A stretch of DNA of 29,015 bases, taken from positions 1 to 29,015 of the IMG/VR virus record IMGVR_UViG_3300031669_000179, one strand, 5' to 3'. Below the pieces are notes generated by a model. It saw only the letters and a list, made by a program, of their open reading frames with translations. It made no database searches and had not been told where the DNA came from. The DNA is from a virus. This document shows, piece after piece, positions 2,199 to 25,288 of the stretch (its first letter is position 1; each line of letters opens with the position of its first letter). The position numbers and the translations under genes are program-made.

Positions 2199-2596
2199 CA
2201 AAATTCCTTTATATAACGATAGATAGATGCGCGAGACACTTCATAGTGTTTTGCTAATTCGCTTATCTTTTTTCCATTGCTGTATTCATTAGCAATATGC
2301 TTCCTAACAGCCTTTGCGATTGCCTTTGGTTTAGGCCTTCCGCATTTAGCACTTAACTTTTTACGTATTGCTTGTCCGTGTCGTGTGTCGTAAAAGTCAC
2401 GCATACGCTTTGAACGTTTCTCAAGCACTTCCTTACCTTCGTCTGTCTTGTAAAACTTTTTGCAAGACTCGCTAATCTTCTCGTTATGCTCTTTTGTGCG
2501 TGATTTTGTGCTATGATGCGGGCTGACTTCCACAGGATCGGTTGTAACAAGGTTCTCGATATCATTAAAAGATGTTATTTTATCTAAACCGCTCAT
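2195..2596 (-). CDS. Helix-turn-helix DNA-binding protein, possible homing-endonuclease remnant
   Basis: I chose the ATG at 2596 because AGGA (TCCT at 2601-2604 on the plus strand) is spaced 5 nt before it. An in-frame ATG at 2650 would add 18 residues and sits 2 nt after a minus-strand GATAAATA box. The protein has a basic region (about residues 30-80) of K/R/S-rich repeats resembling NUMOD-type DNA-binding modules of GIY-YIG and HNH homing endonucleases. The last 25 residues are a resolvase-like helix-turn-helix (ISELAKHYEVSRASIYRYI). No nuclease catalytic motif is visible. Lying alone on the opposite strand inside the late block fits a mobile free-standing gene. It stops at TAG, followed in frame by a second TAG. 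Confidence 0.7.
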   Translation of the reverse strand: MSGLDKITSFNDIENLVTTDPVEVSPHHSTKSRTKEHNEKISESCKKFYKTDEGKEVLEKRSKRMRDFYDTRHGQAIRKKLSAKCGRPKPKAIAKAVRKHIANEYSNGKKISELAKHYEVSRASIYRYIKEFC

Positions 2597-2610
2597 AAAT
2601 TCCTGTATGT

Positions 2611-2618
2611 GATAAATA
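2611..2618 (+). promoter_or_regulatory. Late promoter box for the tail sheath gene
   Basis: GATAAATA on the plus strand, 56 nt before the sheath ATG at 2675. The predicted start near 2624 gives a leader of about 50 nt that begins with the palindrome at 2627-2638 and contains the strong ribosome site AAGGAG. Confidence 0.65.
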
Positions 2619-2626
2619 TCACTATA

Positions 2627-2638
2627 GTCCAATTGGAC
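2627..2638. promoter_or_regulatory. 12-bp palindrome GTCCAATTGGAC, possible operator
   Basis: A perfect 12-bp inverted repeat lies between the plus-strand late box (2611-2618) and the minus-strand late boxes (2640-2647, 2653-2660). It also sits in the upstream region of the helix-turn-helix gene. Location suggests an operator for that protein or for a divergent-promoter switch; this is inference only. Confidence 0.4.
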
Positions 2639-2652
2639 ATATTTATACATAT

Positions 2653-2660
2653 TATTTATC
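2653..2660 (-). promoter_or_regulatory. Minus-strand late promoter box for the helix-turn-helix gene
   Basis: GATAAATA reads leftward, 2 nt before the first possible ATG at 2650. An exact T4 consensus TATAAATA also reads leftward at 2647-2640, and would serve the preferred start at 2596. It overlaps the sheath leader, so the two late transcripts diverge and overlap. Confidence 0.5.
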
Positions 2661-2674
2661 TAAGGAGAAAAAGA

Positions 2675-5488
2675 ATGGCCCTATTATCCCCAGGCGTGCA
2701 GGTGAGCGTGACGGACGAGAGTTTCTCGACTGGCGCAGGACCAGGTACAGTACCGCTTGTCTTTGTTGCTACTAAGCAGGATAAGACAACACCAGACGGT
2801 ACAGCGACAGCAGTAGGTACGACAGCAGCCAACGCAAACAATCTTTACCTAATCTCTAGTCAGCGTGAGCTACTACAGACATTTGGTAACCCGGACTTTA
2901 ACGAAGTCGGTGGATCAGCACAGAACGGCTACCCACTAAACGAATACGGTTTGCTTGCTGCATATTCCTACCTAGGACTTGCTAACCGCGCGTATGTAAT
3001 TCGCGCAGACATTGATCTAGCAGAACTAGATCCACTATCAATTGCACCAACAGGCGATGCGGTAGACAGCACTTATTGGGTTGATCTAAACGAGTTTACG
3101 CCTGGTTTGTTTATATCGGATGCATCCAGTAATTGGACAGCAGTAGACGTAGACGTAATAGTTAACCCTAGTGCTACAGCGTTTGATACATCTAGCAATG
3201 TAAGCGGACGCCAAGTAGGCGACATAATTGCAGTATTTTATCCAGCAAGCGTAGATGCAACGACGGGTGTTCACCTAGAATACTATAACTTTACATCGGG
3301 CGGCACCTGGGCTAAACTAGACGGCGGCGCACTAGCTAATGAGATATACCAGTCTCCGCACTATACAGTACCTACCGGTACTGCTGGCGACCTTTGGTTG
3401 AAGACAACTACACCAAACAGTGGTTTAAGTCTCAACCTTAAGCGTTATGATGCAACACTAGCGCAGTTTGTTGACTTAGGTACAACGCCAATCTTCCAGA
3501 ATCCAACGGCGTATTACGCATCGTCGGGTGTTACATCATCAGCAGTAACAGCAGGCACAGTAGTAGGTTTTGTTGATTCGACAGACAACAGTGTGTCGGG
3601 CGAAGATGTACTAGACGTTGTATTCCAGTCCCACAGTGGTGCAACAACAACATCAGCAACAGGTACAGCAACACCAACATTTGTTAACATTGCAGCACTA
3701 GACTCGATCGACATTACGCTCGGTGCAGGCGCGGCAGTTACGGTTGCATTTACGGGTGCTGAAACTACAGTGGACGAACTAGCAACAACAATTAACACTG
3801 ATGCAGACGTTATTACAAACGGCAATATTGTCGCAAGCAGCACAACACTTACGGGCGGCGCAGAAGTACTAGTAATTACTGCTACTAACGGAGCAGACGT
3901 AACACTTGCTAATAACGTTAATACTCCACTAGCAGAAATGGGTTACGGTTCCGGTGGCACATATTCAAACTTCAGTGACCTAGACTCAGTATCTGGTGTA
4001 ACATACGCAGCATCACTAACAACACCTGCAGGCGATACAGCATACGGTACATACTGGTATGACGCAAACTTTAACGTAGACCTACTTGTTAAAGATGCAG
4101 CTGGCACAGGTTGGATTGAAGTTGCAGGTACAGTTTCCACGCAAGCAGACGCTCCGACTTCACCATCGAACGGTGACATTTGGGTTGAAACAGATTCAGG
4201 CACATCGTATCCGGTAATTTACCGTCGTACAGCAGGTGCATGGGTACTAGTTGACAACACTGACCAAACATCACCACTAGGTATTATCTTTGCCGATGCA
4301 CGACCAACTAACTCATCAGCGGCAACTAACGGCGTTAACAACGGCGGCGGCAGTGATCCAGATCTAGACAGCGATGCTCCAGATCCAGCACTGTATCCAG
4401 GAGGCACACTCCTATGGAATACACGCTACAGTGGACGCAACGTTAAGGTATGGACGCAAGACGCAGCTACAACAGATGTATCGGGACTAGTTTCCGTTGA
4501 TCGTTGGGTCAGCGCAAGCGGCAACAACCTAGACGGTAGCTTAATTACTGGCGCAGCGGCACAGAAGAAAGTTGTTATTAACGCAATTGCAGCAACAATC
4601 ACTGCAAATGAAGATGTACGCAATGACACAATCTTCTACAACCTAATTGCTGCACCTGGCTTCACTGAGCTAATGGACGAAATGCTAACTCTAAACACTG
4701 ATCGTAAGGAACAGGCGTTTGTAATTGGCGACGCACCATTCGGACTATCTAATGCAACGACAAGTTTGCAAGCATGGTCATCTAATGCTAACAATGCAGC
4801 AGGCAACGGCGACGACGGACTAGTAACAACAAGTCCTTACTTGGGTGTTTACTACCCATCAGGCCTATCTACTAACGTAGACGGCAGCGAAGTAGTTGTT
4901 CCTGCAAGCCACATGGTACTACGTCAAATGGCGTTTAACGACCAGGTTGCTTATCCTTGGTTTGCACCAGCAGGCTTCTCACGTGGCACAATTAGCAATT
5001 CATCCGCAGTTGGTTACTTGGATAGCGAGGACGAGTTTGTAACAGTTGCGCTGAACGCAGGTCAGCGCGACACGCTATACACAAACAACGTTAACGCTAT
5101 TGCAACACTTCCTGGACGAGGCATTGTTATTTGGGGACAGAAGACACGTAACCCAGTAGCAGGTTCGCTAGACCGTGTAAATGTTGCACGTCTTGTTAAC
5201 TACATTCGTTACCAATCAGACCTGTTGGCACAGCCATTCTTGTTTGAGCCTAACGATACAGTAACACGAGATGCAGTTAAAGAAGCGTTTGACTCGTTCC
5301 TAGCAGAACTTGTTACACTACGCGGCGTAACTGACTTCCTGGTTGTTGTAGACGAGAGCAATAACACGCCAGCACGTATTGATCGCAACGAACTTTGGGT
5401 AGATATTGCTATACAGCCTACAAAGGCAGTAGAGTTTATCTTCATCCCAATTCGACTACGCAATACCGGCGACGATCTAAACCTATAA
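2675..5488 (+). CDS. 18: Tail sheath protein (gp18-like), enlarged
   Basis: This is the contractile tail sheath subunit. The N-terminus (MALLSPGVQVSVTDES) and the C-terminal domain (FLVVVDESNNTP, then RNELWVDIAIQPTKAVEFI) match the conserved ends of T4-type sheath proteins. The ATG at 2675 follows AAGGAG; an upstream in-frame GTG has no such site. At 937 residues it is much longer than T4 gp18 (659). The extra material, roughly residues 120-560, is Thr/Ala/Gly-rich beta sequence with repeated 'GD(I/L)W(V/L)' segments, probably surface-exposed inserted domains. A UUCG-loop terminator follows at once, so the gene is likely a single-gene late unit. Confidence 0.93.
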   Translation: MALLSPGVQVSVTDESFSTGAGPGTVPLVFVATKQDKTTPDGTATAVGTTAANANNLYLISSQRELLQTFGNPDFNEVGGSAQNGYPLNEYGLLAAYSYLGLANRAYVIRADIDLAELDPLSIAPTGDAVDSTYWVDLNEFTPGLFISDASSNWTAVDVDVIVNPSATAFDTSSNVSGRQVGDIIAVFYPASVDATTGVHLEYYNFTSGGTWAKLDGGALANEIYQSPHYTVPTGTAGDLWLKTTTPNSGLSLNLKRYDATLAQFVDLGTTPIFQNPTAYYASSGVTSSAVTAGTVVGFVDSTDNSVSGEDVLDVVFQSHSGATTTSATGTATPTFVNIAALDSIDITLGAGAAVTVAFTGAETTVDELATTINTDADVITNGNIVASSTTLTGGAEVLVITATNGADVTLANNVNTPLAEMGYGSGGTYSNFSDLDSVSGVTYAASLTTPAGDTAYGTYWYDANFNVDLLVKDAAGTGWIEVAGTVSTQADAPTSPSNGDIWVETDSGTSYPVIYRRTAGAWVLVDNTDQTSPLGIIFADARPTNSSAATNGVNNGGGSDPDLDSDAPDPALYPGGTLLWNTRYSGRNVKVWTQDAATTDVSGLVSVDRWVSASGNNLDGSLITGAAAQKKVVINAIAATITANEDVRNDTIFYNLIAAPGFTELMDEMLTLNTDRKEQAFVIGDAPFGLSNATTSLQAWSSNANNAAGNGDDGLVTTSPYLGVYYPSGLSTNVDGSEVVVPASHMVLRQMAFNDQVAYPWFAPAGFSRGTISNSSAVGYLDSEDEFVTVALNAGQRDTLYTNNVNAIATLPGRGIVIWGQKTRNPVAGSLDRVNVARLVNYIRYQSDLLAQPFLFEPNDTVTRDAVKEAFDSFLAELVTLRGVTDFLVVVDESNNTPARIDRNELWVDIAIQPTKAVEFIFIPIRLRNTGDDLNL

Positions 5489-9644: not shown

Positions 9645-10062
9645 GAACACTATATACGAGTGGCGTAAGATTGTTGCTGAATTATTTGAAGACGACAAGC
9701 CCTACGCTACAATGGATGATGGTCCTGAGGACTATCTCTACCGTAAAGACGGCGAGCAGAAGCTTGTAGGTTCGGCAGATAACGAACCCGAAGCAGACGA
9801 AGAGGCGCTTGCCGAAGAAGAGAATGACGGTTATCGATATCGTGAAGAAGTTGATTACGAAGAAGATAACAGCAAGATTTGGCACTACGTAAAGTCGCCA
9901 GGTGAGGAGTGGACATATATTGACCGTTCGCCCTACGCACCAATGGATGACTTTGCTTGGGAATTGTATAAAGATTTTCATAAAAAGAATGGCAGATGGC
10001 CAACAAAAGATGAAAGTCGTAAAATAGAAGAGCTTGAATACCAAAGGTATAAAAATGACTAA
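9628..10062 (+). CDS. Acidic protein of unknown function
   Basis: The ATG overlaps the end of the preceding gene by 17 nt, and GGCGGCGAG precedes it. The 144-residue protein is very acidic and rich in Tyr and Trp. A central region (residues 35-85) is nearly all Asp/Glu. The C-terminal 40 residues ('FAWELYKDFHKKNGRWPTKDESRKIEELEYQRY') look like a small helical domain. No family is recognised. Coupled overlaps with both neighbours put it in the same late operon. DNA mimicry is a possible reading of the charge, unproven. Confidence 0.65.
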   Translation: MARGSKNTIYEWRKIVAELFEDDKPYATMDDGPEDYLYRKDGEQKLVGSADNEPEADEEALAEEENDGYRYREEVDYEEDNSKIWHYVKSPGEEWTYIDRSPYAPMDDFAWELYKDFHKKNGRWPTKDESRKIEELEYQRYKND

Positions 10063-11794
10063 AGAACTCGAAGAACTACGTAAACTAGCTGGCCTACCAG
10101 TTGTCGAAGATTGTGACGAAGAAGTAGTTGAAGAAGCTAGTGGACAGAGAACATCAACACTACGGCGTATTGTCGGTCCAGGCGAAACATCAAGTGAGCG
10201 TGGACGCACGTTTTTGTCGTTCGGCAAAGACCAAAAGCATCTTGCTACAGTTATAGACAAGCTTACTGCTATGTATGGCGAGCCGCAAGTAAAGAACAAG
10301 GCGCTTGTTTTTAATGATGGCGAGAAAGACCTTATGCTACATAATTACGATAGATTTAATGAATTATCGTTTAATTATATGGACGAGTCAGACATGTTTA
10401 AAGAAGATTGCGACGAATCAGAAGACGACAAGAATGACGATGGCGAATGCAGCCCATTTACACATGCTGACGACAACGTTGCAATGGTACGCGAAGATGA
10501 TTTCGAAGAAGACTACTTAGTTCCACCTAAGGACTTAGAGGATGGTCATTACGAAGATGACGACGACGGCCACTGGGATAACTCAGGTAATGTTAGTGTT
10601 CGCACTTCGGAACCGTTTGATAATGACCGCGTCGTAGACAACGATGACGAAGGCACATACAGCGGCAAGACAAACTTTGATGACGAAACATTCGATGACT
10701 GGACTGCAAAGTATCCAGACGAGTCCGTCGAAGAAGCAGATTCGGATGATCCGTCCGCAATTGAATGTCCGGGATGTAGTGAGATTGCATTCAACAAAAT
10801 TGGCAAGGTAGGCAAAGATGATGAATTTGAATGTGAGAACTGCGGGAAGTACGGCATAATGGGTGCGCTAGATGAGCAAGGCCCAGGCGACGACGAAGAC
10901 GAATTTGCAGCAGATGATGATGCAATGGTTGACGTAGGTGACGACGAAGATTACGAAGAGTTTGACTTTAACGATGAGTTTGAGCAAATGATGGGCAACA
11001 CTAACCGTTTTGAAGCAATCGAAATAAACGAACTACGCAAACGCGCAGGACTAGCAGAAAAGACAATCGTTACAAAAGATGACATCGCGGCAGCAGGTGG
11101 CGAAGTAGTAGGACACAAGGACGAAGTTACTGGCGGCCCAGGCACATCAACACGCCACGACGGTAGCGACCAAGTACGTATTAGCGTAGCGAAAGGCTTC
11201 CCAAACATGAAGCAGTGGTGGAAGGAAGATCCAAAGGACATTATGTCTATGGTATACTGGCAGAAGAACCAACTACCACCTAGCGACGAAGAAGCATTTG
11301 CTCGCAATTGGGAAAAAGTAAAAGCTAACCTAACAAAGAAATTCGGCGCAGCACCGGAAGTAGCAGAATCGACAGATAACAAAGACGATTACGATTTCTT
11401 TAACTTCGACGACGAGAAAGCGTACTACCTAGTAGCTGACGAAATTGGCGATCAAATTATCTTCGGTATGCAAAACGAAGTTGGTGTTCCTGAGCAGTAT
11501 ACAGATAAGATTGTCGCGTTACTAACAGACCACGGCTTCGAGCAAGGTCGAGCATATGAATTTGCAGGCATGGAAGAAGATTTGCAGAACGGCTATAACG
11601 ATCGAGAATCTGTTGATGACGAGTTTGATCTACGTTTCCCTGCAGGTGCTACTAGCAGTCCAGCACGTGAGCTAGGACCAGCAGGTGCGAAGCATGGCGA
11701 TAACCCAATGCGCACACCGATGGCATCAGTTGATAAGGACGAAGATTACATTTACGAGTCCTTTAAACACGCTTATCGCAGATTCCGCAAGTAG
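10055..11794 (+). CDS. Large acidic protein with zinc ribbon and LRKLAGL repeats
   Basis: The ATG at 10055 follows AAAGG; the upstream in-frame TTG has no such site. The 579-residue protein is extremely acidic. It opens 'KELEELRKLAGLPVVED', and a related segment, 'INELRKRAGLAEK', recurs near residue 325, suggesting two modules each introduced by the same helix. A C-x2-C...C-x2-C zinc ribbon occupies about residues 238-262 (CPGC and CENC). Further mixed domains follow to residue 579. It resembles the other large accessory proteins in this window (13851-16010 and the minus-strand 25785-27821) in charge and zinc knuckles. Function is unknown; virion-associated by context. It stops at TAG immediately followed by TAA. 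Confidence 0.7.
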   Translation: MTKELEELRKLAGLPVVEDCDEEVVEEASGQRTSTLRRIVGPGETSSERGRTFLSFGKDQKHLATVIDKLTAMYGEPQVKNKALVFNDGEKDLMLHNYDRFNELSFNYMDESDMFKEDCDESEDDKNDDGECSPFTHADDNVAMVREDDFEEDYLVPPKDLEDGHYEDDDDGHWDNSGNVSVRTSEPFDNDRVVDNDDEGTYSGKTNFDDETFDDWTAKYPDESVEEADSDDPSAIECPGCSEIAFNKIGKVGKDDEFECENCGKYGIMGALDEQGPGDDEDEFAADDDAMVDVGDDEDYEEFDFNDEFEQMMGNTNRFEAIEINELRKRAGLAEKTIVTKDDIAAAGGEVVGHKDEVTGGPGTSTRHDGSDQVRISVAKGFPNMKQWWKEDPKDIMSMVYWQKNQLPPSDEEAFARNWEKVKANLTKKFGAAPEVAESTDNKDDYDFFNFDDEKAYYLVADEIGDQIIFGMQNEVGVPEQYTDKIVALLTDHGFEQGRAYEFAGMEEDLQNGYNDRESVDDEFDLRFPAGATSSPARELGPAGAKHGDNPMRTPMASVDKDEDYIYESFKHAYRRFRK

Positions 11795-13850: not shown

Positions 13851-16010
13851 ATGCGAAAAACACTAAACGAAGCTATAGACTTCGGCAAAGTAGCCGAAAA
13901 AGCCGTTGCTATTATGAAAGGCAAGGGACACTCTGTTGTCATGTTCACACTCGATGGCATGGAAACAGCAGATCCTGAAGAGGCACGCCGTTTCTACGTT
14001 AAAACCCCAAATTACATGGTTACAATTGACGAAGACAATGCCCAGCTACGTATTAATAAGAACAGCAAAGTAAAGCTAGATGAATTAGAAGCAGTTATGA
14101 AACAGCTTCGTAACCTAGCTAGGCAATATATGCTCAAATATGAGCTAAAAGTATTTGGCAAAGAGATTGCACCTAAAGATTTTGCCTTCCAAGCAAAGAA
14201 ATACAGGGATAAGAAAATGAATCAAGTAAGTGAAGCAGCACTATCTAAAATGCACGGTAGCACAAAGACAAGCTACCAAACACTAGAGTCAACAAAGATT
14301 ATTGTACGTCACCGTAAGCCTGTACAAGAAGAAGTACGCGGCGCACGTTCACGTCAAATCAATGCAATCTTTATTGAACAGGCAGGCGAGCGTTTTCGCT
14401 TCCCGCATAACAACCTAGCAGGTGCAAGAGCAATGGCACGCCACATTGATGAAGGTGGTGAAATGCATGACGCCGTTGGCGCATACATTATTGAGTCTGT
14501 TGCAAACTTAATTAAGCTTTCCGAATTTATACGCTATACACGCACAAACAAGCTAATAAACGAGACTAGCGAAGATATTATTAAGATTGTACGCGAGAAT
14601 ATGGCAGCATATCGCCGTGAGATTTCCAAGTTCCAAGGTGCAACAACATATGCTAAAATGTGCGAGCAGATTGCTAGCCGTGAAGGCAGCGAGCTTGAAG
14701 AAGATACAGATGAGCTAAAAGATATGTTTACTGTACGCAAGTTTGACGAGAAGATTGGCGACACGCTACCGCTAATCAAGCGCCTTGTTACAGAAAAGAA
14801 CGCATGGCGTTCGATGATCGAAGAAGCAAGCACAGAAGCGTTTGCAGTAACGTCCACAGAAGACTTAATCGAAGCTGACGTTATTGAGTTTGATTCTCCG
14901 GTACAGAAGCTAGGCTACAAGATTCGCGCACTATCGGAGCGCGTTATCGAAGAGTCGGAGCTATCGAAATTCGTTCACAAAATCGGTAACAAACTAATCG
15001 AAGGCAACGAGCTATCGAAGTTTGAAAAGTCGGTTGTCGGCAACGTGCTAGAAAATATCGAAGTTGCAGAGCAAGCAGAAGTCGAGTTTGTTGACAAGCT
15101 TGAAGAGTCGTTTAACGCATGGTCGGCTAAGATCGACAAGCTTGCCGAAGCAAATTTCCCTGCGCAAGGTTCCGAACAGGAGTGTGCATGGTGGGCAGGA
15201 TGCCACAACGATGCAACCACTACAGAACCACATCCAATCTTAGGCGATGTGCCTATTTGTGATAGGTGTGTATCTAAGCTACGTAAGATCGAAGGACTAG
15301 ACGAAGCAGAAGGCGATACATGTTCACGCTGCCGTAAGGGCACAATGGAACGTGGCGAAACAATGACAGGCCCCGCAGAACGTTGCAATCGTTGCGGCTG
15401 GCAGCACCAAGTAAGAGAAGACGACGACGACGGTTGCGAGACTTGCAGAGGCTGGGATCCAGATGATCAATCAGTATGTCCAGATTGCTTCGGTCAAAAT
15501 GCAATTGACGGTTCGGTTACGGAAGATGATTGGGATGATGAGGTTCGCCGCGGCGAATCTGAGTCTGGAGCAACGGGCATGGGCATGCCAATGGACGATA
15601 ACGAATCTAATTCCGAAAAGATACAAGACCTGCTCGATCGAGGTATCGAAGTAGTATCCCAGGTTTCCGGGATGGTCGGAAAAATAATTAAGATTGATGA
15701 TAATCTTGCACTAATTCACCACAAAGCTTCGCGTAGAAAGGGCTGGGCCAGTGTAAACAGAGATACACTATCACTACAGCCACACAAATTCAAGAAAGGT
15801 GCATATGCACTTGTTAGTTCGTACGATGACAAACTAAGTGAAGAACCCGGCGACTGGGATCACGGCTATAACTATGAAGGACAAGGTAACATAGATCCAG
15901 AAGATTTCATGGACGAATGTCCAGCTTGTTCAGGAACAGGCATGAGTGCCGATCCATTCGGTCCTGGCGGCGGCGATTGCGAAAAGTGCGACGGCAACGG
16001 CTACGTATAA
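13851..16010 (+). CDS. Large virion-associated protein with multiple zinc knuckles
   Basis: The 719-residue protein starts MRKTLNEAIDF, with LNE|A as a candidate gp21 cleavage site. Residues 1-125 form an alpha/beta domain. Residues 130-220 ('SKMHGSTKTSYQTLESTK', then 'GARSRQINAIFIEQAGERFRFP') look like a module I associate with T4-like virion proteins. Residues 220-440 are helical and acidic. The last 280 residues carry four Cys clusters: about 445-473, 491-515, 529-545 and 690-713 (CPAC...CEKC with a DnaJ-like CxxCxGxG pattern). An SH3-like stretch lies near 600-660. No enzyme is identifiable. Its late promoter and place after gp17 suggest a packaged or structural protein. Confidence 0.7.
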   Translation: MRKTLNEAIDFGKVAEKAVAIMKGKGHSVVMFTLDGMETADPEEARRFYVKTPNYMVTIDEDNAQLRINKNSKVKLDELEAVMKQLRNLARQYMLKYELKVFGKEIAPKDFAFQAKKYRDKKMNQVSEAALSKMHGSTKTSYQTLESTKIIVRHRKPVQEEVRGARSRQINAIFIEQAGERFRFPHNNLAGARAMARHIDEGGEMHDAVGAYIIESVANLIKLSEFIRYTRTNKLINETSEDIIKIVRENMAAYRREISKFQGATTYAKMCEQIASREGSELEEDTDELKDMFTVRKFDEKIGDTLPLIKRLVTEKNAWRSMIEEASTEAFAVTSTEDLIEADVIEFDSPVQKLGYKIRALSERVIEESELSKFVHKIGNKLIEGNELSKFEKSVVGNVLENIEVAEQAEVEFVDKLEESFNAWSAKIDKLAEANFPAQGSEQECAWWAGCHNDATTTEPHPILGDVPICDRCVSKLRKIEGLDEAEGDTCSRCRKGTMERGETMTGPAERCNRCGWQHQVREDDDDGCETCRGWDPDDQSVCPDCFGQNAIDGSVTEDDWDDEVRRGESESGATGMGMPMDDNESNSEKIQDLLDRGIEVVSQVSGMVGKIIKIDDNLALIHHKASRRKGWASVNRDTLSLQPHKFKKGAYALVSSYDDKLSEEPGDWDHGYNYEGQGNIDPEDFMDECPACSGTGMSADPFGPGGGDCEKCDGNGYV

Positions 16011-22955: not shown

Positions 22956-23031
22956 GGCTCGTTAGCTCAGTGGTAGAGCACACGCCTCTAAAACGTATTG
23001 GTCCAGGGTTCGATTCCCTGACGAGCCTCCA
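22956..23031 (+). tRNA. tRNA-like gene with CUA (amber) anticodon
   Basis: It is 76 nt with an encoded CCA. The acceptor GGCTCGT/ACGAGCC pairs 7 of 7, D-stem GCTC/GAGC, and T-stem CAGGG/CCCTG with loop TTCGATT. The anticodon loop reads CTCTAAA (22986-22992), with T33, anticodon CTA and A37, the loop of known amber suppressors. The anticodon stem is poor: CACGC against ACGTA gives three pairs with C-A mismatches at both ends. Discriminator base is T. It may be a functional suppressor or a decaying tRNA. Confidence 0.75.
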
Positions 23032-23342: not shown

Positions 23343-23374
23343 TGCTGGTGTGCCGTTGGACGGATAAGGGTCTC
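23343..23374 (+). repeat. Duplicated 5' half of a tRNA, copy 1
   Basis: These 32 nt are identical to 23561-23592, the 5' half of the tRNA-like gene at 23562. Identity stops inside the anticodon loop. No 3' half follows, so this copy cannot fold as a tRNA. It now forms the leader of the small Cys-rich frame at 23393. Confidence 0.85.
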
Positions 23375-23557: not shown

Positions 23558-23561
23558 ATTT

Positions 23562-23633
23562 GCTGGTGTGCCGTTGGACGGATAAGGGTCTCTAAAGCCT
23601 GGACTTGAGGGTTCGAATCCCTCCACTAGCGCA
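23562..23633 (+). tRNA. Second tRNA-like gene with CUA anticodon and reduced D-arm
   Basis: Acceptor GCTGGTG/CACTAGC pairs 7 of 7 with one wobble. T-arm GAGGG/CCCTC is perfect with loop TTCGAAT, and the variable loop is 5 nt. The anticodon loop reads CTCTAAA (23590-23596), the same as in the tRNA at 22956, so the anticodon is CTA. The D-arm is short (CCG/CGG or CCGT/ACGG around a 3-5 nt loop). The end is G-CA, not CCA, so CCA would be added by the host. Its 5' half is duplicated at 23343. Confidence 0.65.
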
Positions 23634-23652: not shown

Positions 23653-23811
23653 ATGAATAAATGGTTGACAAAATTATACGTTGGAGTTACAATAGGAACA
23701 TGGATTAAAAGAATATTGATCATTCTTTTATGTCTAGCACTATATCAGTGCGGTGACTATTACTTTAACGTTCACTTACCAATGATGGAAAACGGAGGGC
23801 ATGTACAATGA
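23653..23811 (+). CDS. 52-residue single-span membrane protein
   Basis: The frame has a basic N-terminus (MNKWLTKLY), one hydrophobic helix ('ILIILLCLALYQCG', residues 21-34) and a short aromatic outer tail. The cysteine after the helix does not fit a strict lipobox. It has its own late box at near-leaderless spacing. A lysis accessory (holin or spanin type) is conceivable from size and timing but unsupported by motif. Confidence 0.55.
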   Translation: MNKWLTKLYVGVTIGTWIKRILIILLCLALYQCGDYYFNVHLPMMENGGHVQ

Positions 23812-23845
23812 CATAGACTAATTTAATACGCGGTCCCTAATACGG

Positions 23846-23908: not shown

Positions 23909-24478
23909 ATGAAACACTTTACAATCGAAAACGCAAAGACTCGACTCTTTGAATCAAAAGAACATTACCTAAATTTCAAACAAGCATGGAAGTCATTCCA
24001 TAATAGCGACAAACTCGTATGGCGCGAGGACGTTGAGGTCTACGTGTATAACCAAAACAAGTATGCTACTATGCGCAATGTCAAGCATACTGCTCTTTCT
24101 GCAGAACACTACATGCTTTATAACTTGCTTCGCGGCTATAGCTCGGAGCGCGGCTTCCGTGAGGACGGCGATCATGGCTGGACAGCATGTGAGTATGCGC
24201 TATGGCAAATCAACCGTACAGCTAAGAACCTGAAAGACGTTAACAGCGAATACGCAATAAATCGCAAGAGTACTCGTGCAGCAATCGACAAATTATTGTT
24301 GCCGTTTAACGATACTGTCTCACACCAAATGTTATACGAAGTTGGCAAAGCTATATCAGAGCAGTTCTACGGACACGATAGCAGCACACACTTCAACTTT
24401 GAGGTTGAAGAATGGAAAGAGATAGAGGAAGAAAAGCCAATGTCTCTCAAAGAGAAGCTAATGACGAGGTTTGCATAA
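23909..24478 (+). CDS. Unknown protein, helical
   Basis: The 189-residue protein has a strong ribosome site (TAGGAGA). It begins with 'TIENAKTRLFESKEHYLNFKQAWKSFHNS' and has a middle rich in Tyr/His/Arg ('SAEHYMLYNLLRGYSSERGF') and an acidic C-terminal helix. No family is recognised. The stop overlaps the next ATG (TAATG), so the two proteins are likely made together. A structured leader precedes it. Confidence 0.7.
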   Translation: MKHFTIENAKTRLFESKEHYLNFKQAWKSFHNSDKLVWREDVEVYVYNQNKYATMRNVKHTALSAEHYMLYNLLRGYSSERGFREDGDHGWTACEYALWQINRTAKNLKDVNSEYAINRKSTRAAIDKLLLPFNDTVSHQMLYEVGKAISEQFYGHDSSTHFNFEVEEWKEIEEEKPMSLKEKLMTRFA

Positions 24479-24876
24479 TGGCACAGTTAAAACAGCACGA
24501 GTTCGAAGATCATATTGATAGCTATGCAAAGATTGACTTAGCAATACGCTGCCTTGCAGACGAGTATGCTAACAAGTTTGATAGTGGATCGCATGTTACG
24601 GATATTGAAGTGGAGTATGATGGTGTCTTTGGCACCATCGCCATTTCAACTGAAACATATTCGCCTTGTAGTTGCTGCGGTTCTGATTACGGTGAGTTCA
24701 CTATTCCGCTTCGCTATCTTTACGAAGATGATTGGGCAGAACAGGTACAAGCCGAACTTGATAAAAAGCAGCGCATACGTGAAGAGGTCAAGCGTGAGAA
24801 AGCAGCCGAACAAAAGAAAAGGGAAGCTGAGGGCGAACGTAAACTTTACGAGAAGCTAAAAGAGAAGTACAAATAA
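24478..24876 (+). CDS. Unknown protein with CSCC cluster and C-terminal coiled coil
   Basis: The ATG at 24478 overlaps the previous stop. The 132-residue protein has an N-terminal alpha/beta domain with 'YSPCSCCGSDYGEFTIPLRYL' near residues 60-80, and a 45-residue Lys/Glu-rich coiled coil at the end. Metal binding is possible but not established. It ends 8 nt before the tRNA-like RNA at 24885. Confidence 0.7.
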   Translation: MAQLKQHEFEDHIDSYAKIDLAIRCLADEYANKFDSGSHVTDIEVEYDGVFGTIAISTETYSPCSCCGSDYGEFTIPLRYLYEDDWAEQVQAELDKKQRIREEVKREKAAEQKKREAEGERKLYEKLKEKYK

Positions 24877-24884
24877 CAAACAAC

Positions 24885-25068
24885 GGGGGCGTAGCTCAGT
24901 GGTAGAGCATTCACAGCTATAATTGTCCGGCGCGGCCAGTCGGAGATGAGCATCTACAGGTGGTCCTGTGGGTTGGTGAAAAGTCGGTAAAGCGTATGTG
25001 AGGATGGGGATTACGGCCAACAATCCCTAGTCAAACCAGGCGTGGTTCAATTCCACCCGCCCCCACCA
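24885..25068 (+). ncRNA. Interrupted tRNA-like RNA (about 110-nt insertion), ends in CCA
   Basis: The 5' end has acceptor GGGGGCG and D-arm GCTC-loop-GAGC. The 3' end has T-loop TTCAATT with stem GTGG/CCAC, acceptor CGCCCCC (7 of 7 pairs), A73 and CCA. Between them lie about 130 nt in place of the usual anticodon arm and variable loop. Inside are hairpins ACAGG-TGGT-CCTGT and GGGATT...AATCCC, and TTCAC (24910-24914) can pair with GTGAA (24976-24980). No group I or II intron core is visible by eye. It could be an intron-containing tRNA, a tmRNA-like chimera or a new tRNA-mimic. The 3' end abuts the convergent FeoA-like gene by 1 nt. Confidence 0.7.
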
Positions 25069-25069
25069 A

Positions 25070-25288
25070 TTAAACGGGCTCGACAGTAAAATGTCGGGCC
25101 TGTTCTGCTGAAAATGCGAAACGGCTGTCGTGTAGTTTAAATTCGAGGGCGCTGCCTGTGCGGCTAACGTGTTCGATAACTGCACCTTCAACAAAGCCTA
25201 ATACCATTAAGCGTTGAACGTGCGGATCGGTTGCGTCAATAGCAGTTATGATTGCTTTTTTGCCTAGCCCTAGATCAGTTATGCACAT
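25070..25288 (-). CDS. FeoA-domain protein
   Basis: The 72-residue protein fits the FeoA (SH3-like) pattern: 'DLGLGKKAIITAIDA' (L-x-x-G-x-x-A-x-I), 'VQRLMVLGFVEGAVIEHV' (R-L-x-x-L-G-x-x-x-G) and a C-terminal 'FAFSAEQARHFTVEPV' (A-x-x-I/F-x-V). FeoA is a small cytoplasmic partner of the ferrous iron transporter FeoB, and related domains sit on DtxR regulators. The start overlaps the upstream stop (TAATG), so it is translated with a candidate packaged protein. A phage copy could modulate host iron uptake or be an unrelated use of the fold. Confidence 0.75.
   Translation of the reverse strand: MCITDLGLGKKAIITAIDATDPHVQRLMVLGFVEGAVIEHVSRTGSALEFKLHDSRFAFSAEQARHFTVEPV

Follow-up and report, generated by a model that had tools for sequence, protein, structure and literature searches.

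The DNA analysed here (the window: 29,015 nt, positions 1 to 29,015 of the viral record IMGVR_UViG_3300031669_000179) comes from a jumbo myophage and covers part of its genome. The terminase shares 59% identity with that of the PA5oct group, and genes for a tail sheath, UvsX, and an ssDNA-binding protein are present. Two plus-strand genes in this window, one encoding 189 aa with no function assigned (23909–24478) and one encoding 132 aa from the start codon common to its relatives (24478–24876), are directly followed by an RNA of 184 nt on the same strand (24885–25068). The RNA begins 8 nt after the stop of the 132-aa gene and occupies the entire gap between that stop (24876) and the stop (25070) of a convergent 72-aa gene, from which its 3′ end is separated by 1 nt.

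The convergent gene (25070–25288, minus strand) was found in all four phages that carry an array of such RNAs and is missing from L211, a relative without the array. Its product is FeoA-like by eye only and had no match in PHROGs or phage records. A hairpin (CAGGCTC..ACA-GTAAAA-TGT..GAGCCTG; 25070–25100 in the window) overlaps the end of this gene and is conserved directly after the array in L004, L007, and L018 as well; it could terminate the RNA transcript, but in the window it was not called by a terminator scan. The neighbouring genes in the window matched no defence or tRNA-processing families, no close relatives were confirmed for a neighbouring protein of 154 aa, and complementarity of the RNA to the rest of its own operon did not rise above that of shuffled controls. 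A related phage contig (L173) encodes a cytidylyltransferase–Nudix fusion protein and a nicotinamide phosphoribosyltransferase (833–1894 and 2408–3916), which suggests NAD+ salvage.

An amber-containing leader and two CTA tRNAs lie upstream

The gene at 23909 is preceded by a mini-ORF with an upstream ribosome-binding site and the layout ATG-NNN-TAG-NNN-NNN-NNN-Ile-Arg-Gly-Pro-TAA. It is located at 23808–23840 on the plus strand of the window, at 9987–10019 in L004, 14425–14457 in L007, and 13340–13372 in L211, and on the minus strand of L018 at 11136–11168. Its third codon is UAG in all five phages, and the Ile-Arg-Gly-Pro stretch is conserved through synonymous codon changes (Arg as CGC, CGT, or AGA). 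At its end the leader reads CCCTAAT, a complement of the ribosome-binding site that serves the next gene. Judged from these sequences, the leader is possibly a translational switch that depends on read-through of UAG, that is, on amber suppression. Recoding of TAG as a sense codon by the phage was not seen, the long structural ORFs being devoid of in-frame TAG.

Two tRNA genes with CTA anticodons are also located upstream of the 184-nt RNA. In the first (22956–23031), good pairing in the anticodon stem is limited to three pairs at its middle, and the second (23562–23632) has a D-stem of 3 bp. The 5′ half of the second is present as an exact duplicate of 32 nt (23343–23374 and 23561–23592), which ends within the anticodon. 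The extra copy lies about 220 nt before the complete gene, and a small ORF sits between the two. This duplicate looks like the trace of an insertion or recombination event at a tRNA.

The 184-nt RNA has a complete tRNA shell

A preliminary description of the locus had assigned a tRNA frame to 24885–25068, and all of its elements were confirmed to the nucleotide. The acceptor stem P1 is formed by GGGGGCG (24885–24891) and CGCCCCC (25058–25064), which pair at seven of seven positions, followed by the discriminator base A and an encoded CCA (25065–25068). The D-arm (GCTC-AGTGGTA-GAGC, with GG in the loop; 24894–24908) and a T-arm of 4 bp (GTGG-TTCAATT-CCAC, with the elbow bases present; 25042–25056) complete the shell, the latter supported by both sequence and model. 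In a focused cmscan, the Rfam tRNA model (RF00005) matched 24885–25065 with 32.1 bits (gathering score 29; E 3.9e-5 for 301 bases) and placed an insert of 110 nt in the alignment. The default scan of the whole window with Rfam and ARAGORN both missed the RNA, as did ARAGORN when anticodon-loop introns of up to 200 nt were allowed at the default score.

The folding energy of the single sequence is unexceptional (z −1.29; equalled or bettered by 16 of 200 shuffles), so that the window copy alone would make a weak case. What settles the reality of the RNA is its recurrence in eight full-length copies from four phages, together with the covariation among them.

The RNA recurs in tandem arrays in related phages

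RNAs of the same type were found at the same locus in the viral contigs L004, L007, and L018, in tandem arrays of three, two, and two copies, respectively. With the single copy of the window, this amounts to eight full-length copies from four related jumbo phages, all of which keep both halves of the tRNA frame. The contig L003, apparently from a phage near-identical to that of the window, contains the first 67 nt of the RNA before the contig ends. The copies sort into two types and one divergent copy (L004_C). RF00005 scored 31.0 bits for L007_2 and 44.5 bits for L004_C; no RF00005 match was listed for the type-1 copies.

Across the copies, pairing of the acceptor stem is complete and five of its seven pairs change on both sides, and the encoded CCA is retained in all eight. 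The D-stem is fully paired wherever it is present and is lost only in L018_1, a copy that retains the inserted core. The discriminator base varies (A, G, or C), which indicates that no single aminoacylation identity has been kept.

Two inserts form a conserved domain of their own

The preliminary description had regarded the RNA as a tRNA interrupted by about 110 nt. The length agrees with the insert in the Rfam alignment, but the interruption consists of two insertions, one of 54 nt in the anticodon loop (insertion A; 24922–24975) and one of 61 nt where a tRNA has its variable loop (insertion B; 24981–25041), all elements described here being on the plus strand. The insert had also been described as structured, with two hairpins and a TTCAC/GTGAA pairing, all of which are present, and as leaving no obvious 5-bp anticodon stem once cut out. 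The TTCAC/GTGAA pairing covaries and is itself the 5-bp equivalent of that stem, located exactly at its place. Termed P3 here (24910–24914 with 24976–24980), it changes on both sides at five of five pairs in the eight copies, starts right after tRNA position 26, and encloses about 60 nt, comprising the former anticodon-loop segment and insertion A. In a canonical tRNA, a 5-bp stem closes a 7-nt loop that holds U33 and the anticodon. In the window copy, the stem is present as P3, but the loop is opened and position 33 is G. The former loop segment itself (AGCTATA; 24915–24921) reads mostly nnGCAAA in the other copies and AUGCAAA in L007_2. As the latter resembles the anticodon loop of tRNA-Cys, descent from an ordinary tRNA that acquired two insertions is suggested.

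Insertion A contains the hairpins P4 and P5. P4 (24926–24944; 7-nt loop GCGGCCA) is fully paired in seven copies, with five of six pairs covarying, and was recovered independently by RNAalifold. P5 (24952–24973) is variable in length and replaced in sequence among the copies, and paired in all seven that have it; on the model alignment its pairing falls to 64%, owing to register shifts. Insertion B takes the form of a giant variable arm, made up of a CGGTAAA joining strand, the helix P7 (24994–24998 with 25037–25041), and the hairpin P6 (25005–25029; loop ACGGCCAAC), which is supported by covariation. Four of the five P7 pairs covary and 97.5% of its cells are paired in the eight copies, with one mismatch in the window copy; between P7 and P6 lies an internal loop, GTTAGG/CAAAC. 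The inserted joining strands and loops CGGTAAA, GTTAGG, CGGCCAA, and CAAACC are among the most conserved positions.

The GGCC in the loop of P6 can pair with the GGCC in the loop of P4. When the copies were aligned by hand, helix by helix, this loop–loop pairing was kept in all seven that have both loops, with a single compensatory change (GGUC–GACC in L004_A). As GGCC is self-complementary, pairing between two molecules is equally possible.

The fold is supported by covariation and by held-out copies

A covariance model (R1) was built from four of the copies, aligned with MAFFT. The four copies left out of R1 scored 63–92 bits, compared with at most about 47 for ordinary tRNAs; the window copy scored 197 bits, a value to be read with regard to the fact that R1 was built partly from it. 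In the alignment of all eight copies, both partners change in 31 of 49 pairs and 92.9% of the cells are paired, compared with 74.6% in shuffles, none of 500 of which reached the observed value; sliding the partner strand by one to three columns cut the pairing to 34–48%. Because the structure guided this alignment, the values lean in its favour. Independently of such fitting, 21 of 46 pairs were changed on both sides in the MAFFT alignment of four copies, and RNAalifold, unaided, recovered P1, the D-stem, P3, P4, P7, P6, and part of P5 from that same alignment. The hand alignment by helix agrees with the fold of the eight-copy alignment. Judged by these alignments, the eight copies share one well-supported fold.

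Known copies are confined to one small clade

Every known copy belongs to one small clade, and the family, with members of about 150–185 nt, is narrow in its known distribution. When 83 further related viral records, many of them fragments, were scanned with R1, only ordinary tRNAs were found, and the same was true of the isolates PA5oct, Phosso, fENko-Kae01, and Vibrio 2.275.O. One R1 match of 150 nt in Phosso turned out to be two adjacent tRNAs. Among viral contigs, a strict pattern of the window copy gave no match, and looser patterns of the core, with R1 as the judge, gave true copies only in the same three contigs; in a genome collection, none of nine pattern matches was a real copy according to R1. 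By DNA similarity, the window copy had no match among phage records, and the L007 pair matched only pieces of ordinary tRNAs and short fragments among phage and plasmid records. In L211 (61% identity in a marker protein), the two upstream genes are present and the array is absent, leaving an empty site. There, the upstream gene is followed by a plain hairpin that resembles a terminator and has a T run (14304–14340), and the next gene comes thereafter.

Comparison with known RNAs

With tRNA (RF00005), the RNA shares the acceptor stem, the D-arm, the T-arm, the elbow bases, and the encoded CCA, and it passed the gathering score of that family in the focused scan. It differs in having no closed anticodon loop, in carrying two inserts (54 and 61 nt) with a conserved fold of their own, and in its inconstant discriminator base. 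The preliminary description had named a hit to a known Rfam class as grounds for abandoning the idea of an undescribed RNA. The shell does match the tRNA family, and no other Rfam family matches. The idea of a structured RNA, not described before and built on a tRNA frame, is supported.

YrlA, a bacterial Y RNA that also occurs in phages, is a tRNA mimic that does not decode. Compared with YrlA, the phage RNA keeps the order of tRNA unpermuted and is devoid of the Ro60-binding stem. The YrlA model (RF02553) had no match in the window; a match in L004 (19.2 bits vs. a threshold of 69) spanned the junction of two copies and was rejected. No TROVE/Ro60 gene was found in nine records, most of which are fragments.

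Like tmRNA, the RNA has a long structured insert with loop pairings between tRNA-like ends; unlike tmRNA, its D-stem is intact. ARAGORN in tmRNA mode (-m) reported nothing and no Rfam tmRNA match was obtained up to E 10, which leaves the tmRNA-like option raised in the preliminary description unsupported. GOLLD and ROOL are phage RNAs found by tRNA islands that assemble via kissing loops (PMC12286853). They resemble the RNA in being structured, located near tRNA genes, equipped with kissing loops, and without an assigned function; they differ in being several times longer and in having no tRNA shell, and their Rfam models did not match the window RNA. In the laboratory, RNAs are made stable in E. 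coli by building them into a tRNA at its anticodon arm (PMC3753655). In such scaffolds a foreign fold likewise sits in the anticodon arm, but they are man-made and have neither an insert in the variable region nor pairing between inserts. Group I introns in tRNAs share the insertion in the anticodon loop; the phage inserts, however, are far too short, devoid of the core motifs, and without an Rfam match. That no group I or II signature is visible had been remarked on in the preliminary description, and it holds in that no Rfam intron matched up to E 10.

Alternative readings

Insertion A could be an intron in the anticodon loop, so that the mature product would be a tRNA, in which a huge variable arm may remain. 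In keeping with this, P3 forms a proper anticodon stem of 5 bp, and the AUGCAAA that follows its 5′ strand in L007_2 reads like the intact anticodon loop of tRNA-Cys(GCA) before the insertion begins. However, no known class of intron in Rfam matches, the triplet at the anticodon position differs among the copies, position 33 is not U in most of them (the window copy included), and the variable region would stay at 61 nt. In a scan of 700 excisions per copy, no common tRNA product emerged, and shuffled inserts were called tRNAs as often in most copies; ARAGORN is permissive in this setting, which makes the scan weak by itself. A simple intron is disfavoured, given that a consistent tRNA did not result from any one excision. 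Within the insert, a middle segment serves as partner of the 5′ strand of the anticodon stem, and another internal segment as partner of the final stretch ahead of the T-arm, both with covariation, which also counts against the miniature intron and the split tRNA of the preliminary description; furthermore, pairing of the P4 loop with P6 argues that both inserts stay in the RNA. An interrupted tRNA is improbable. Even less credit is due to the notion that the copies are functionless tRNA genes decaying after insertions broke them. One copy has lost its D-stem, base mismatches occur in the T-stem, and the relative L211 does without the array, all of which would fit decay. Nevertheless, pairs are maintained by strong compensatory changes across shell and inserts, which makes mere debris very unlikely, the joining strands are invariant, and the copies have been duplicated and kept.

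A regulatory circuit that joins the arrays to the CUA tRNAs and the UAG leader peptide, for example through competition with these tRNAs for processing or charging, likewise appears quite unlikely. The UAG mini-ORF is conserved in five of five phages near CUA tRNA genes, and the window copy happens to carry CTA at the anticodon position; however, L211 lacks the array despite having the leader and a CUA tRNA, and CTA is not found there in any other copy. More serious is the possibility that the tRNA shell only matures and stabilises the RNA, the work being done by the P4–P5–P6–P7 domain (in regulation, in binding of a phage protein, or in oligomerisation via the self-complementary GGCC loops). 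As an account of the data it was graded nearly as good as tRNA mimicry, and we hold it to be possible, if on the unlikely side. The inserted core is conserved as much as the shell and was kept in L018_1 when the D-stem was not; tRNA embedding in the laboratory provides a precedent (PMC3753655), as do the kissing-loop assemblies of GOLLD and ROOL near tRNA islands (PMC12286853). On the other hand, an acceptor stem that is paired throughout with covariation and a CCA in eight of eight copies exceed what simple protection needs, and neither the families of the neighbouring genes nor complementarity within the operon revealed a target or partner.

A proposed tRNA mimic

Among the options offered in the preliminary description, a tRNA-mimic RNA is the best supported. 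The decoding loop is opened and filled by a second conserved fold, and the RNA, therefore, probably cannot read codons. We lean towards regarding it as a member of a new family of tRNA-scaffolded phage RNAs that do not decode and work by tRNA mimicry. The RNA is probably matured like tRNAs. It would be co-transcribed with the two upstream genes, RNase P and other tRNA-maturation enzymes would recognise the shell and cut it out, and tRNA 3′ maturation would finish its end. Once released, it would accumulate as a stable, nuclease-resistant molecule in which the loops of P4 and P6 kiss. With less confidence, as surfaces recognised in tRNA are presented without a free anticodon loop, its action may be one of mimicry, in which it would occupy or divert a host factor that binds tRNA. 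The most plausible target would be a tRNA-cutting defence nuclease, or else another tRNA-processing or translation factor, with specificity supplied by the conserved inserted domain.

YrlA has been proposed as a competitor of anticodon nucleases (PMC7790460), and phages evade tRNA-cutting defences by supplying tRNA (PMC13096335), which together make a decoy plausible. In a more daring version, which we consider speculative and rather unlikely, tandem tRNA decoys with a kissing-loop domain would neutralise a host defence that targets tRNA, or seize a tRNA-binding factor, from within an operon gated by UAG suppression.

The RNA family is real, undescribed, and structurally well supported; its function we infer. 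To our knowledge, non-decoding RNAs that mimic tRNA are few, namely tmRNA, YrlA, and the 3′ ends of plant viruses. The family would add a phage mimic to these, in which the tRNA is neither permuted nor reduced but expanded at two sites that can touch each other, and it is the natural parallel to the tRNA scaffolds used in RNA engineering. As ARAGORN and default Rfam scans were silent here, similar RNAs may hide in other tRNA regions of phages. If the RNA is a decoy, a concrete prediction follows as to the resistance of jumbo phages to tRNA-cutting immunity.
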